DNA from: Candidatus Methanoperedens sp. BLZ2
GTDB lineage: Archaea > Halobacteriota > Methanosarcinia > Methanosarcinales > Methanoperedenaceae
Reading direction: 5' to 3'
Length of the DNA stretch: 64,000 nucleotides
NCBI RefSeq assembly: GCF_002487355.1
Contig: NZ_NTMG01000060.1
Span: forward strand, 1-64,000
The notes beneath the pieces are model-generated. The model worked only from the letters and a program-made list of their open reading frames with translations, searched no databases and was not told the origin of the DNA. Below, piece after piece: positions 617 to 63,496 of this stretch. Positions within the stretch are counted from its first letter, which is position 1. Each line of letters starts with the position of its first letter. Made by a program: the position numbers and the translations under genes.

Positions 617-721
617 ACATGGGGTTCAGCCATTCCGCAAGAGCAACTGAACCCCGGATCGCCCGAAGGCATGGTAAGATTAGCTTTGAAATTATTTAAA
701 GCCAGCGCTGCGCCTGAGGGC
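617..721 (+). promoter_or_regulatory. structured leader element, copy A
   Basis: This is the first of three related non-coding elements (also 32281-32401 and 40127-40243). It holds a GGGGTTCA/TGAACCCC hairpin (621-655), then GCCCGAAGGC (661-670), which can pair with GCCTGAGGGC (712-721) through a tandem G-A internal loop. An inner GCTTT/AAAGC hairpin lies between them. It sits about 35 nt upstream of a secreted peptidase gene whose ribosome binding site (AAGGAG near 741) follows. Position and conserved pairing suggest a cis-acting RNA. I cannot match it to a known family. Confidence 0.5.
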
Positions 722-756
722 ATCAAGAAAAGAAAATATAAAGGAGAAATAAAAAT

Positions 757-30579: not shown

Positions 30580-30687
30580 GTCATTATGTATCTCATACAG
30601 CTTTTTTTTATTTCGAGGACCTCTTTGTAAGAGTCATCCTTTTTATTTACCATATGAGAAGTTGTTTTGTCTTATCAAGATAAAAAG

Positions 30688-30742
30688 GTTTCTATTACAA
30701 CCTTAAAGGTCATGTTTGTATATTAAAATGTAGTTGGTATAG
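30688..30742 (+). repeat. 55-bp direct repeat, copy 1 (possible promoter)
   Basis: Matches 40308-40362 at 54 of 55 bases. Contains ACCTTAAAGGT (30700-30710), a 5-1-5 palindrome, and TATATTAAAA (30719-30728), acceptable as a TATA box. In both copies the palindrome lies just upstream of the AT box, as an activator site would. What it would transcribe here is the region from about 30750 onward. Confidence 0.6.
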
Positions 30743-30769
30743 GTTTATAGCAATTATTCGGTATGGAAT

Positions 30770-30899: not shown

Positions 30900-31691
30900 T
30901 TATGAGGATGTTTTGTTCAAATATTCCTGCAATGAATCGAAGTAATTGGAATTGATGCTGTAAATTGTGTACCTGCCATTTGTATCAGCTTTAACAATCC
31001 CCTGTTCTTTCAGATGTTTAATATGCTGTGTAAGTGTCGGTGAAGAAACTCCGATTCCTTCTGCAAGGGTTTTATGATTTATATTTTGATTACCAAGTAT
31101 CCCTAAAATAATCCTTCTATGAGTATCATTCTTCAGCGCAGAAATTACTGTCCGTTCTTCTTTATTATAAGTAGAGTGGTTCAGAAAATAGCGAAGTTTT
31201 CCGTTTGTTTTGTATGATTCTATTATTTCTTTTGTTTCCATCGTTTTCAGGTGGTATTCGACCGATCCTTTGTTCAATCCTGTTTCTTTTATTATCTCGC
31301 TGAAATAACTTCCAGGGAAAGATTTAATAAAACCATATAGTTTTTCCCTGTTCATATTTTCCAGAATATTTGAGCTGTTTAATCTCTTATAGCCACAAAG
31401 GATGGGAAAAAGCCTGATTGGAAAAAAAGTTTCCGGAGAAGAGGTTACCTTAGTAAAACCCAGCAGAAGAAGAAAAAGCCAGTAAGGAATAGGTTTGACT
31501 TCGATTTCATGAACATCTTCCCCTGCTACTGATGCGCCGAATTGGTTACTTTGGGAGGGACGTACCGTGTATTCAGTAGCATAGGCTGTAGAGACCGATA
31601 ATAAAATGAAAAAATAAAGAAGGAAAATTCTCGGTCTAATGCTGAGCCACGTTAAAGTTGTAGTCTTCCGTTCCAACGACTGATACTCCAT
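30900..31691 (-). CDS. membrane-bound two-winged-helix regulator
   Basis: About 263 residues (ATG 31691 assumed; the upstream gene's stop lies inside the first codons). A signal-like segment (IFLLYFFILLSVSTAYA) leads to a short outside part beginning TEYTVRPS, then a membrane helix (PYWLFLLLLGFT). Inside the cell are two winged helices (about 112-165 and 185-245). TEYTVRPS is shared with the mature N-terminus of the secreted protein upstream, so the pair probably sense and report together. It should bind DNA while fixed in the membrane; one-component membrane regulators like this are common in Methanosarcinales. Confidence 0.7.
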   Translation of the reverse strand: MEYQSLERKTTTLTWLSIRPRIFLLYFFILLSVSTAYATEYTVRPSQSNQFGASVAGEDVHEIEVKPIPYWLFLLLLGFTKVTSSPETFFPIRLFPILCGYKRLNSSNILENMNREKLYGFIKSFPGSYFSEIIKETGLNKGSVEYHLKTMETKEIIESYKTNGKLRYFLNHSTYNKEERTVISALKNDTHRRIILGILGNQNINHKTLAEGIGVSSPTLTQHIKHLKEQGIVKADTNGRYTIYSINSNYFDSLQEYLNKTSS

Positions 31692-32070
31692 ATGCCTCAT
31701 ACTTCCATTGTCCTGCTTCTACATAACCCTGACCTGGAACAATATCAATATGTATCCTGCCGTCAATTATTCCATCGCTTGAATCATAATAAGTTCCAAT
31801 GCGGCTGCTGCCGGGCGTGTATATGGTCAGCGAGAGGGAATCGGTTTTGTCTCCACAGTTCAGGTCGACTTCAAGCCAGTTTACACTGCTTCCCACATTT
31901 GTATAGTATGTTTTAGTCTGACCCTGTGTTAAAGAATCATATGTCTGGATAGATACTGGCGGTATTTCACCGCTTGAAGGACGCACTGTGTATTCTGTTG
32001 TATTTTTTGCCGATACCACTGGCACAGACAACAACGCTGCAACCATAAATAAAGCAATTAACCATTTCAT
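31636..32070 (-). CDS. small secreted beta-rich protein
   Basis: 144 residues from ATG 32070. Signal peptide MKWLIALFMVAALLSVPVVSA, then mature KNTTEYTVRPSSGEIPP. The body (LTQGQTKTYYTNVGSSVNWLEVDLNCGDKTDSLSLTIYTPG) resembles a jelly-roll or pre-peptidase-like domain. It overlaps the 5' end of the membrane-bound regulator gene. The shared TEYTVRPS motif suggests that both attach to or sense the same partner. Confidence 0.65.
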   Translation of the reverse strand: MKWLIALFMVAALLSVPVVSAKNTTEYTVRPSSGEIPPVSIQTYDSLTQGQTKTYYTNVGSSVNWLEVDLNCGDKTDSLSLTIYTPGSSRIGTYYDSSDGIIDGRIHIDIVPGQGYVEAGQWKYEAYGVSVVGTEDYNFNVAQH

Positions 32071-32111
32071 GTTATCACCGAAAGGGTATAACAGCAAAGG
32101 AGTATATGAGT

Positions 32112-32257
32112 TTTCTATGAAAACCACCTAACTGATTTTGGACTACCCTGAATGGTTGAAGTTCGATGCATGAGTTATCAATCAACCAAACGTTTCTGCT
32201 GCTTTATTTCACTGAATCAATTTGCAAACCGAATCAGTTAGGTACTTTTCATAGAAA
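32112..32257. promoter_or_regulatory. long inverted repeat in divergent promoter region
   Basis: Arms at 32112-32137 and 32232-32257 are inverted copies agreeing at 23 of 26 positions (TTTCTATGAAAA and CCTAACTGATT blocks in both). They lie between the minus-strand secreted protein/regulator operon (start 32070) and the plus-strand secreted gene at about 32456, one arm in front of each. Two identical half-sites in front of two divergent units fits binding by the operon's own winged-helix regulator. Confidence 0.6.
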
Positions 32258-32280
32258 TTATATAAGCATCTAAGACTTTT

Positions 32281-32401
32281 AAGAAATCGTGCGGGGTTCA
32301 ACTGAACTTACCAAAGAAAGGTTAAACCCCGGACATCGCCCGAAGGCAAAATAAGGTTAGTACTTCAAATGTATTAAAGACTTGCTTGGTTTTGCCTCCG
32401 G
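32281..32401 (+). promoter_or_regulatory. structured leader element, copy B
   Basis: GGGGTTCA (32293-32300) pairs with the (A)ACCCC block, then comes ATCGCCCGAAGGCA. CCGAAGGCAAAA (about 32340-32351) can pair with TTTTGCCTCCGG (about 32390-32401). It is nearly identical to copy C over the first 75 nt. It precedes a secreted protein gene, as copy A does. A riboswitch-like or protein-binding leader is inferred. Confidence 0.5.
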
Positions 32402-32455
32402 AGTAATATAAAAAGAAGGTGAAAAAGAATCAAAGCAAGTATAAAAATAGGTGTT

Positions 32456-32848
32456 ATGACTCTAATGGTACTTAGCATATTCAGCGGTGTAGCGCTTGCA
32501 GATCCAATCCAAGGAGGAGGAGATGCCAGTAATTACTATAGCAGTGCAAGCACTCTTGAGCGAGCAATACCATCCGGCAGCTGGTATATCTATGGAAATG
32601 CATATCTCCAAACCAGCGACGTTGACTGGTACAATCTCAATACCAATGCAGGTCAGCTACTATCCTACGAATTGGATACGGCCGACTGGCCTTATGTCCT
32701 GCTGGATATATATACATCATCAACCACAACTATCGGAAACGATAATGTAGGTAGTGTTTATGTTTCTGGTAATACGAAGCAAAAAACCATACTTAGTGGA
32801 GGACATTCAGTTGATGACTGGTATCAATTTAGGCTGAAAATCAACTAG
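32456..32848 (+). CDS. secreted pre-peptidase-like domain protein
   Basis: 130 residues from ATG 32456. The start gives an unusually short signal (MTLMVLSIFSGVALA) without positive charges. Upstream in the same frame the codons read KRIKASIKIGV, exactly the missing basic n-region, but no start codon is in frame. A GTG with an AAGGTG site sits at 32419, one base out of frame in an A-run. So either one base is inserted here or a non-standard start is used. The mature part (VDWYNLNTNAGQLLSYELDTADWP) resembles a PPC-type beta domain. Confidence 0.6.
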   Translation: MTLMVLSIFSGVALADPIQGGGDASNYYSSASTLERAIPSGSWYIYGNAYLQTSDVDWYNLNTNAGQLLSYELDTADWPYVLLDIYTSSTTTIGNDNVGSVYVSGNTKQKTILSGGHSVDDWYQFRLKIN

Positions 32849-32975: not shown

Positions 32976-33611
32976 ATGAGAAAATCAATAATAATTGTAG
33001 TATCCATTGTATCAGTGTTGGCGATACTCTTCGCTGTTGCATTGGGCTTTACTGGTACTAATATCAAAGTCAACTCATCCGCAATTAAGGAAGCTGGGAC
33101 TATCAAAGATAATCAATCTGACAGTGGAGAGACCATGGATTCAATATCTACTCCGACACCTGAATCTACCCAGGAGAAAAACACAGAAATGGCGATTACA
33201 GAAGTGCAAACAAAAGTTTCCTTTACAATTCTCAAACCAGCTTATATACCTGATGGATACACGCTGGATATTTCACAAACCAGTGGAACTAAGTTCAGAG
33301 GTACTACTGCACAGCTCGAACAGGCAAGGCTTACCTATACAAAGGAAAATGAAACGCTGACCTTACTTGAAGTCCTCGTGGTTGGTGATGACCCCATTGA
33401 CTCTAAAATTGCATCTAAAACCCCATGGAAATTCGTAGATATAAATGGCGTTCAGGGCCGCTTACTGGAAAAAAGTGATGGAAAGCAGTTAAGCTGGGAA
33501 ATAGGTAAGCTTAACTTGACCATTCTCGGTTCCGCCTATAATGGGAATGGTTTTACCGATACCTCACTCAGTAAAGAAGAGATGATAATGATGGCAAAAT
33601 CTGTCAAATAA
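32976..33611 (+). CDS. membrane-anchored DUF4367 protein
   Basis: 211 residues. N-terminal signal-anchor (SIIIVVSIVSVLAILFAVALG), a Ser/Thr/Pro linker, then a DUF4367-like domain (VSFTILKPAYIPDGYTLD... QGRLLEKSDGKQLSWEIGKLNLTILG). DUF4367 occurs in anti-sigma-like and lipoprotein-carrier-like extracytoplasmic proteins. Function unknown. It sits before the export cassette starting at 33672. Confidence 0.65.
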   Translation: MRKSIIIVVSIVSVLAILFAVALGFTGTNIKVNSSAIKEAGTIKDNQSDSGETMDSISTPTPESTQEKNTEMAITEVQTKVSFTILKPAYIPDGYTLDISQTSGTKFRGTTAQLEQARLTYTKENETLTLLEVLVVGDDPIDSKIASKTPWKFVDINGVQGRLLEKSDGKQLSWEIGKLNLTILGSAYNGNGFTDTSLSKEEMIMMAKSVK

Positions 33612-40126: not shown

Positions 40127-40243
40127 AAATCGTGCGGGGTTCAACTGAACTTACCAAGAATGGTTAAACCCCAGACATCGCCCGAAGGCATGATAATATT
40201 AGCTTTGAACTTATTTAAAGCCAGCGCTGCGCCTGATGAGGGC
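40127..40243 (+). promoter_or_regulatory. structured leader element, copy C, with kink-turn
   Basis: GGGGTTCA/(A)ACCCC hairpin, then GCCCGAAGGC (40180-40189) facing GCCTGATGAGGGC (40231-40243). These strands form AGGC/GCCU, a 3-nt GAU bulge, tandem G-A pairs, and GCCC/GGGC: all parts of a kink-turn. Between them are GCTTT/AAAGC and AGCGCT. No secreted gene follows; a 5-codon ORF remnant does. So this copy may be orphaned, or may act on the operon at 40421. Confidence 0.5.
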
Positions 40244-40307
40244 AGCAAAGAATACAAAATTAATGGCCAACAAAATGTGAATCAGGTTATAAAAATTCTA
40301 TTCTAAA

Positions 40308-40362
40308 GTTTCTATTACAACCTTAAAGGTCATGTTCGTATATTAAAATGTAGTTGGTATAG
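40308..40362 (+). repeat. 55-bp direct repeat, copy 2 (possible promoter)
   Basis: One mismatch to 30688-30742. Palindrome ACCTTAAAGGT at 40320-40330 and TATATTAAAA at 40339-40348. The first gene of the redox operon starts at 40421, leaving an untranslated leader of about 50 nt if transcription starts 25 nt past the AT box. Element C and this repeat fill most of the 397-nt gap 40024-40420. Confidence 0.6.
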
Positions 40363-40420
40363 TTTTATGACGGCTAAGTATATGCTAATAACCTGCCAAT
40401 ATGTTCTCGAGGTGAATTAA

Positions 40421-63052: not shown

Positions 63053-63496
63053 TGAATCATCATCCTCCCTGTAACGTGTTACAAGCCATTACAGTCTGAT
63101 TCTGCACCATTTTGGTTCAAGTGCAGCGGTCTATTTTCGCTTGTCTGTAATTATGACTCTTACAATGGTTCAACATTCGTTTCTTCATACATTTTTACCT
63201 TAGCGGATTGTCTGGATTAGACTTCCAGAGTTCTCTACATTGTCTTATGGGCTTCACACCTTCTCATTACTGAAAACGCATGCCATAATAAGGTCACTCC
63301 GAATGGAGGGAGGGGCATTTCTGCAATTTGTGATGCAACTTCTTGTCACAAAGGATTTACAGGATGGACAGGATTAACTTCCATCCTGTAAATCCTGTAA
63401 TCCTGTCCAAAAATGCCCTGAATACTCACTCATAATCAATTATGTGCATCGAATCGGTGTGAAAACCAAATGTAGGTCAAATTTTCAGACAAGCTC
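63053..63496. other. intergenic region with repeat hairpin
   Basis: No gene with a believable start is present. The plus strand carries the strong hairpin at 63353-63395 (listed separately) and mixed-composition DNA. The 63150-63300 part reads like degenerate mobile-element or repeat sequence but matches nothing I can name. Confidence 0.5.
63353..63395. repeat. 15-bp-stem repeat hairpin (ATCCTGTAAATCC type)
   Basis: GGATTTACAGGATGG (63353-63367) and CCATCCTGTAAATCC (63381-63395) are perfect inverted copies with a 13-nt loop. A further AATCCTGT copy follows. This sequence type is a widespread interspersed repeat in bacteria and archaea; here it sits in an otherwise empty gap. Confidence 0.75.

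Follow-up and report, generated by a model that had tools for sequence, protein, structure and literature searches.

Introduction

Few membrane-bound archaeal regulators with mapped operators are known to us. In the accessible part of one survey, membrane-bound regulators as such are described as common in archaea (PMC10269533). A promoter plan relevant to the present work comes from Halobacterium, where, in the portion of the account available, GvpE elements adjoin the BRE and TATA box of both divergent gvpA/gvpD promoters (PMC9501494). At the RNA level, natural archaeal riboswitches and regulatory leaders are few according to the available text of two papers (PMC8241225, PMC11549558), one of which states that up to 2021 no natural riboswitch other than the fluoride riboswitch had been demonstrated in archaea (PMC8241225), and long 5′ leaders are, in the accessible part of another report, common in Methanolobus (PMC5378194). 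A term search of the main text of a paper on 104 candidate RNAs (PMC2864571), as far as that text was available, found "Methanosarcina" and "methanogen" 0 times. Among the matches listed in our literature search, which left subscription papers mostly outside its scope, nothing described the leader or the operator reported below.

Here, a 64,000-nt stretch of DNA from Candidatus Methanoperedens sp. BLZ2 (hereafter the window) was analysed around a long inverted repeat that lies between a regulator operon and a divergent secreted gene. Computation established the arms, the way in which they are conserved and change together, the layout of the promoters, and a leader RNA with its covariation, and this one locus offers candidates for both an archaeal regulatory leader and a membrane regulator with operators.

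Results

The inverted arms adjoin two divergent core promoters

The initial annotation of this region, made from the sequence alone, had described two 26-nt inverted arms agreeing at 23 of 26 bases, one before each divergent unit. The coordinates of the arms proved to be exactly as claimed (Table 1), and the identity had to be corrected to 24 of 26 complementary positions (92%); the only differing bases are CC versus GT, and 94 nt separate the arms. Read in the direction of transcription, each arm has the layout CAGTTAGG(nnn)TTTTCATAGAAA and is continued by a TATA box, CATATAC for the left arm and TTATATAA for the right one; the AGAAA of the arms occupies the position of the BRE. This makes the arms upstream elements in contact with the core promoters of two divergent units, in agreement with the placement of one arm before each unit. 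The arms read CAGTTAGGnnnTTTTCATAGAAA and contain no ArnR-box palindrome (TCGAC-N5-GTCGA).

With +1 per match and −1.5 per mismatch, the repeat of the window scored 21, and the best of 840 dinucleotide-preserving shuffles, pooled over 21 loci, scored 15. The genome search for the half-site that the initial annotation had proposed, carried out with TTTCTATGAAAANNNCCTAACTGATT (23 specified positions) at up to three mismatches, returned two sites in the 3.74-Mb genome, which are exactly the two arms; the reversed control pattern gave 0 genome sites, and 100 shuffles of the window gave a mean of 0.00 matches. A first search pattern, CATAGAAANNNATATA, had been dropped for its wrong spacing (32 true versus 38 control matches).

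Across the genus, the half-site was found at 10 sites in 5 of 31 genomes, every one of them beside a copy of the leader described below and within an intact, truncated or contig-edge version of the window region. This result bears on the possibility that the arms are the ends or remnants of a mobile element, which had been named beforehand as the outcome that would refute the operator reading. Contig ends and unidentified inserts do occur at the region in some genomes (L011, L012, L029). However, the own genome holds no other copy within three mismatches, no exact match was found in viral contigs, all genus sites adjoin a leader, the arms touch TATA boxes, and the gap between them varies from 2 to 182 nt across loci; a mobile origin is hardly conceivable.

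Table 1. Positions of the features discussed in the text, numbered from the first letter of the window.
Feature	Position	Strand	Remarks
Membrane-anchored regulator	30900..31700	−	Two predicted membrane helices, outer loop, two winged helices; overlaps the preceding gene
Small secreted protein (partner), 144 aa	31636..32070	−	Predicted beta-sandwich; first gene of the regulator operon
TATA box, regulator operon	32102..32109	−	Minus-strand read TCATATAC; very close to the left arm, on its downstream side
Left arm, putative operator unit of the regulator operon	32112..32137	−	Minus-strand read AATCAGTTAGGTGGTTTTCATAGAAA; similar arms at orthologous/paralogous loci
Left arm, core unit	32112-32134
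Right arm, putative operator unit of the secreted gene	32232..32257	+	AATCAGTTAGGTACTTTTCATAGAAA; similar arms at orthologous/paralogous loci
Right arm, core unit	32235-32257
TATA box, divergent secreted gene	32258..32265	+	TTATATAA
Structured 5′ leader RNA	32289..32404	+	P1, P2 enclosing P3
Leader P1 hairpin			GGGGTTCAAC...GGTTAAACCCC
Leader long P2 stem			GCCCGAAGGC.../...GCCTCCGG; 3′ strand is the candidate anti-Shine-Dalgarno
Shine-Dalgarno-like GAAGG	32415..32419	+	Precedes the secreted gene; the relative L117:12313 has GGAGG
Secreted cargo gene	32429..32848	+	Listed ORF 32456-32848; frame open from 32429
Leader, second copy	617..722	+	Before the secreted C39-like peptidase gene 757-1944
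Leader, third copy	40132..40241	+	Different (D-type) promoter element

The arm pair is kept and changes jointly at related loci

Searches of 60 genomes, own included, gave a match to the secreted partner in 20 and a match to the regulator in 43, the weaker of which may be HTH domains only; a regulator match was also present on contig NZ_FZMP01000135.1 of Ca. Methanoperedens nitroreducens. The ORFs for partner and regulator were adjacent in 19 of the 22 partner loci inspected, and at the other three (L011, L029 and L034) no regulator ORF was found beside the partner within the available DNA. The adjacent genes overlap in 8 of the 19 loci, window included, and are 12–23 nt apart in the other 11, an arrangement that fits what co-component systems require of the genes for factor and secreted partner.

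Inverted repeats were scanned in 24 loci without using a core word, and five loci were left out of the unit-pair count, namely L012, whose left arm is cut by inserted sequence, the fragments L026, L028 and L035, and L017, where the contig ends soon after the left arm and no second arm was found. The results showed that the unit pair is present in all 19 usable loci and is the top-scoring inverted repeat at each of them. Over the 16 nt upstream of the BRE, the two units agree at 14.6 positions within a locus (range 13–16) and at 9.0 between loci; when the right units were permuted, the mean agreement was 9.28 ± 0.61, and the observed mean was reached 0 times in 5000. The unit pairs had been picked around a shared core word of 6–7 nt, so the within-locus identity is somewhat favoured. 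Two operons of one genome carry different operators in G024 and in G045, and in G046 the operators of the two operons differ by one base that is changed in both arms, which indicates that the operator follows the operon. Within a region of 295 nt, the observed score exceeded that of every one of 40 shuffles at 15 of 21 loci; at the others it was reached by 1 shuffle at L034, 3 at L031, 6 at L028, 27 at L013, 27 at L023 and 32 at L026, and in a longer region the arms scored 22 at L013 and 13.5 at L023. The insert at L012 (G015), unidentified by search, cuts the left arm near locus position 1433 and leaves the arms about 1.2 kb apart.

The joint change also weighs on the idea that the arms are not operators at all, being duplicated general promoter elements (an extended BRE, or an upstream element recognised by some variant of TFB/TBP). 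The AGAAA next to the TATA box fits this idea, as does the resemblance of the inner part of the arms, CATAGAAA, to the D-type TTGTCACAGAAA found before a DUF4367-like gene and at other loci. A general factor, however, would need no locus-specific sequences, whereas the within-locus agreement spans the 16 upstream nucleotides (14.6/16) and loci differ even inside one genome (G024, G045), and we regard general promoter elements as unlikely. The view that the arms are two equal operators, with the membrane winged-helix protein as their likely binder, is what the comparison of loci favours: the arm pair is retained at 19 of 19 usable loci, and its sequence changes jointly from one locus to the next. 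In the absence of binding data, we consider it highly probable that the inverted repeat is the operator pair of the locally encoded membrane regulator.

As for the sign of the regulation, the units overlap the BRE and the TATA boxes are near consensus by eye, which would suit a promoter held off by a repressor covering the BRE. On the other side, the position just upstream of the BRE matches that of the haloarchaeal GvpE activating sequence, according to the available part of that report (PMC9501494). Because activator sites adjacent to the BRE are known in haloarchaea, we lean slightly, by analogy, towards activation, and a BRE-covering repressor appears nearly as likely.

A wider pattern of putative operators in other genomes

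The consensus of the units at the other loci, AGTTNGATGATNTGGNCANAAANNNTATA, was searched at up to three mismatches in 16 genomes chosen for holding leaders or regulators. It occurred at 138 sites in 15 of them, and the reversed control occurred once. The own genome (G000) has 0 sites of this common pattern, and the inner bases of the window's A-type unit are not those of the common unit. The half-site failed as a marker of a wider regulon in the own genome, where the arm pair alone lies within three mismatches.

Among the 138 sites, 44 form 22 outward-facing pairs within 250 nt. Nine outward pairs were examined in four loci; two of them (G156, G169) again have partner and regulator to one side and a leader with its secreted gene to the other, and no regulator was listed beside the remaining seven. 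The spacing of the 22 pairs clusters at 10, 27, 49–51 and 59–61 nt. At L187:3366 (G000 C48), a related membrane regulator stands, across a TTGTCACAGAAAATATATAA promoter, opposite a gene judged by eye to be DUF4367-like; in the window, gene 32976-33611 is DUF4367 by Pfam.

The probable regulator and its putative secreted partner

The regulator combines a DNA-binding domain and at least one membrane segment in one chain, and so fits the criterion for a transmembrane transcription regulator. Two winged helices had been read in this minus-strand membrane protein by the initial annotation, and both the predicted model and the Pfam HTH matches (HTH_24, HVO_0163_N) support them. In the model (mean pLDDT 69.8), the winged helices at 116–173 and 180–249 are well predicted, and helices 23–38 and 73–87 are of low confidence. 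For the partner, the model is a beta-sandwich with pLDDT of at least 90 at 92 of 144 residues, and its closest fold is the jelly-roll domain of Thermococcus Tk-SP (TM-score 0.55–0.56 by query). Searches of Pfam and NCBIfam gave no match to the partner, and among PDB sequences no E-value below 0.78 was obtained. It fails the criterion of a VtrC-type lipocalin-like sensor, its best folds being subtilase jelly-roll domains.

The short outer loop of the regulator begins with TEYTVRPS, and the same TEYTVRPS follows the signal peptide of the partner. In many pairs a similar Y-x-V-x-P-like stretch was seen after the signal sequence in both proteins. A loose-word scan of 18 pairs matched 18/18 partners and 16/18 regulators, the match in the L023 regulator being misplaced. 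By eye, the regulator stretches are YEIVP in L019, YEIIL in L021 and YEISP in L023, and the regulators of L025, L030 and L033 have YTVDS or YTVDF, with the proline missing. In the partner, the stretch corresponds to the predicted strand 27–31, which lies in a block of lower confidence (~67). We infer that the outer strand of the regulator may add to the sandwich of the partner. Because both proteins carry a similar stretch after the signal sequence, we inferred that the co-transcribed partner is the sensor partner of the regulator outside the cell, an inference to which we give an even chance.

The secreted gene is preceded by a structured leader RNA

A leader RNA, of which the initial annotation made no mention, first came to light from a comparison of orthologous loci, which resemble each other roughly as far as the start codon and carry different genes beyond it. 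A model built from 11 sequences gave 12 matches in G000, of which 9 are full copies in sense orientation, 2 are pieces at contig edges and 1 is an antisense shadow. Matches were found in 20 of 31 genomes of the genus and in 101 of 185 genomes of the order (18 of 27 genera), and were absent from the other 84 genomes of the order. In the phylum, 54 of 294 genomes had a match; the 25 outside the order were weaker, at most 44.5 bits among the matches listed. Behind the third copy in the window, no ORF of at least 60 aa was found. The 64 nt at 40305-40368 after this copy are 95% shared with 30685-30748, and from its sequence the region 40132-40368 looks like a truncated secreted-gene unit.

Covariation was counted in 70 aligned matches and revealed 51 two-sided cells versus 16.2 ± 3.2 after shuffling. 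Two-sided change affected 6 of 9 pairs in P1, 3 of 5 in P3 and 1 of 7 in P2, and this number of pairs (10) was reached by 45 of 500 shuffles; the two outer P2 pairs were unpaired in 31 and 25 of the 70 sequences. A second alignment of 48 matches from other genomes, among them a weak antisense match and a match truncated by the end of its contig, gave 47 two-sided cells versus 16.0 ± 3.0, and 11 pairs with two-sided change versus 5.5 shuffled (0/500). In this second set all outer P2 pairs had two-sided change, yet only 68% of their cells pair, and the inner P2 pairs were 98.9% paired without two-sided change. Both alignments were fitted to the model and therefore lean towards structure, and relatedness was not removed. 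The covariation is strong for P1 and P3 and weak for P2, and on this basis the leader fulfils the riboswitch criterion of a conserved structure that covaries.

That the leader is a real structured RNA is, in our judgement, almost certain. No Rfam 15 family reached the gathering threshold for the leader in the window or at ten loci with leaders, and a search of 31900-32600 at E up to 10 gave three matches (E 2.3–4.7), all far below gathering. The leader is apparently uncatalogued and widespread. Rfam also assigned group II intron structures to positions 1-216 (−) and 63204-63314 (−), close to either end of the window.

The leader would begin the mRNA of varied secreted proteins

Upstream regions were compared for 74 listed leaders, an incomplete set from 15 of the genomes searched with AGTTNGATGATNTGGNCANAAANNNTATA. 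A search of the 150 nt before each leader found the operator/TATA pattern on the leader's strand in 31 cases and did not find it in the other 43. The pattern stands 20 nt upstream of the leader in 14 cases and 40–46 nt upstream in 17, with no other spacing among the 31. These two values approximate the distance from TATA box to transcription start, and the mRNA is therefore expected to begin with the leader. The class with 40–46 nt often has a small extra hairpin (AACATC...GATGTT). In G000, 7 of 9 full leader copies have, by eye, another upstream element. Units of leader plus secreted gene also stand in rows, about 1.5–7 kb apart, at L116, L108, L119 and L117, and many units in rows have a further conserved upstream element, GGGTCGGTAAAGTTGGCAGG...GGATTTTACAGCCC, which may be an additional hairpin.

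An ATG lies no more than 60 nt from the model end in 90 of 115 sense leader matches, and 87 of the 90 leader-led genes encode a hydrophobic N-terminal stretch, as judged by a simple count without a signal-peptide program. The signal peptides often resemble MKxSKGMQLGAMLAAMLLLSMAFVPAVSA, a likeness that extends to other genera and to some of the phylum matches. The mature parts were grouped into 48 clusters. Of ten cargo proteins compared with Pfam, five gave matches above the cut-off (M12, C39-like, M10, DUF6345 and DUF7689), the product of window gene 757-1944 also being C39-like, and none of nine scanned reached the NCBIfam cut-off. Homogenised cassettes of leader plus signal peptide were considered and found no support, the DNA identity of signal peptides between families of one genome averaging 0.46 (ungapped, 104 pairs). 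The cargo proteins of L119:2105-2770 and L018:558-1169 are related; the first has a Cys-rich, glycine-rich tail, and by eye we take this tail to resemble small secreted antimicrobial precursors, no family being above the NCBIfam cut-off. In the window itself, positions 32429-32431 are ATC and the relative L117:12313 has ATG there; with GAAGG in place of GGAGG, this copy may thus be weakly translated or decaying. A sequence error is also possible.

The occurrence of the same leader before unrelated mature proteins, and in several copies in rows in some genomes, might suggest a DNA recombination element that swaps secreted genes in the fashion of an integron site. Against this stand the compensatory changes, the two fixed TATA distances where the operator is present and the short distance to the ATG, all of which fit an RNA at the 5′ end of an mRNA; we hold a recombination element to be very improbable.

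A possible translational switch in class-a leaders

Leaders were divided by the 3′ strand of P2 into class a, with GCCTC, and class b, with GCCTGA. In class a this strand is complementary to the Shine-Dalgarno sequence, and the flanking bases change together. Two folds can be proposed, one in which P2 would be formed and the Shine-Dalgarno free, and another in which the 3′ strand of P2 would mask the Shine-Dalgarno. The pairing was evaluated in 47 non-redundant of 56 class-a leaders, relatedness among leaders not being removed. The mean longest helix was 4.70 versus 4.25 ± 0.09 with partners permuted (0/3000), and helices of at least 6 were observed 8 times versus a permuted average of 3.6, a number reached in 28 of 3000 permutations. 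For both classes together (77 leaders), the mean was 4.09 versus 3.80 ± 0.06 (0/2000). The bases after CCTC and before GAGG were complementary in 21 of 39 cases, about 12 being expected from the margins, and long exact pairings such as CTCCTAG/CTAGGAG occur.

Minimum-energy folds of the 56 class-a leaders contained P2 in 50 and left the Shine-Dalgarno mostly free in 33; the masked fold lay a median of 3.9 kcal/mol above the minimum and was already the minimum in 6 of 56. In many of the masked folds listed, GCCCGGAGGC or a similar sequence closes as a small self-hairpin, which in these predicted folds could explain the conservation of that stretch. The leader of the window pairs poorly with its own Shine-Dalgarno region, and P2, on which the switch depends, is the stem that covaries weakly. 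Class-b leaders have no Shine-Dalgarno complement, so the switch cannot be general.

Part of these results would also suit a leader that is a fixed structure, stabilising the mRNA or aiding the targeting of secreted-protein mRNA without any switch: P2 is formed and the Shine-Dalgarno mostly free in so many minimum folds, the masked fold is the less stable one, class b lacks the complement, and the leader travels with similar signal peptides. A fixed hairpin, however, would not need GCCCGAAGGC to pair either with itself or with the 3′ strand, nor does it account for the excess of complementary flanks (21/39) and the long exact matches. A fixed leader remains possible, if doubtful. That the leader switches translation was inferred without probing data, and we find it reasonably likely.

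Discussion

In the mechanism that we propose, the arms would be two copies of one asymmetric operator of about 16–23 bp, each abutting the BRE/TATA of one divergent promoter from the upstream side. Their likely binder, by inference, is the double winged-helix protein that the left operon encodes and that is anchored in the membrane; by binding both arms it would regulate that operon and the divergent secreted gene at once. The partner would probably serve as its sensor outside the cell, and the secreted gene would be controlled again at translation by the 5′ leader RNA. We put the probability of this whole explanation, with paired operators, regulator and partner, and leader switch, at roughly 0.7; the binder, the role of the partner and the switching are inferences made without binding, expression or probing data.

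A broader joint reading is tentative, and we would not expect all its parts to hold together: an uncatalogued, phylum-wide leader family, forming one module with a similar signal peptide, would switch the translation of varied secreted proteases and other secreted proteins on a signal, and in some of the genomes a membrane regulator would additionally act on these genes via paired operators and would sense with the help of a secreted partner that shares a strand with it, as an archaeal analogue of co-component signalling. More than 100 genomes are available for comparison, and genera with laboratory genetics are probably among them, which makes it testable how methanogens and their methane-oxidising relatives time the secretion of proteases and other extracellular proteins.

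Among known systems, the Thermococcus fluoride riboswitch and translational riboswitches share with our leader a structured 5′ position and possible masking of the Shine-Dalgarno, but the leader of the window has no Rfam match and no ligand has been identified for it. Transmembrane transcription regulators likewise unite a DNA-binding domain and a membrane region, and Methanomicrobia are enriched in the survey concerned, the accessible part of which gives no operators or co-encoded partners (PMC10269533). Of the archaeal regulators that are membrane-bound and have mapped sites, the closest one found is, by analogy and on the available text, ArnR/ArnR1 of Sulfolobus acidocaldarius, a membrane-bound one-component HTH regulator with two sites near one promoter (PMC6396743). 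Its boxes are described there as short palindromes (TCGAC-N5-GTCGA) before that one promoter, whereas the units here are asymmetric and stand one at each divergent promoter, and its HTH is N-terminal, unlike the C-terminal HTH of the window regulator (PMC6396743). Regarding the gene pair, VtrA/VtrC and ToxR/ToxS appear the closest found; in the part of the review available to us they consist of a membrane-tethered factor and a secreted partner encoded by neighbouring, often overlapping genes (PMC9214523). These co-component systems are described in enteric bacteria, the accessible main text using the word "archaea" 0 times (PMC9214523), and the partner of the window differs in matching a subtilase jelly-roll and not a lipocalin-like fold, and in being first in its operon. 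The closest promoter plan found, again by analogy and as far as the accessible account goes, is that of GvpE, with a matched element at each divergent promoter and the regulator encoded by one of the two units (PMC9501494). GvpE is bZIP-type by a reference title in that account and its elements overlap within a 35-nt region (PMC9501494), whereas the regulator of the window is a winged-helix membrane protein with a secreted partner, and the arms described here are 2 to 182 nt apart.
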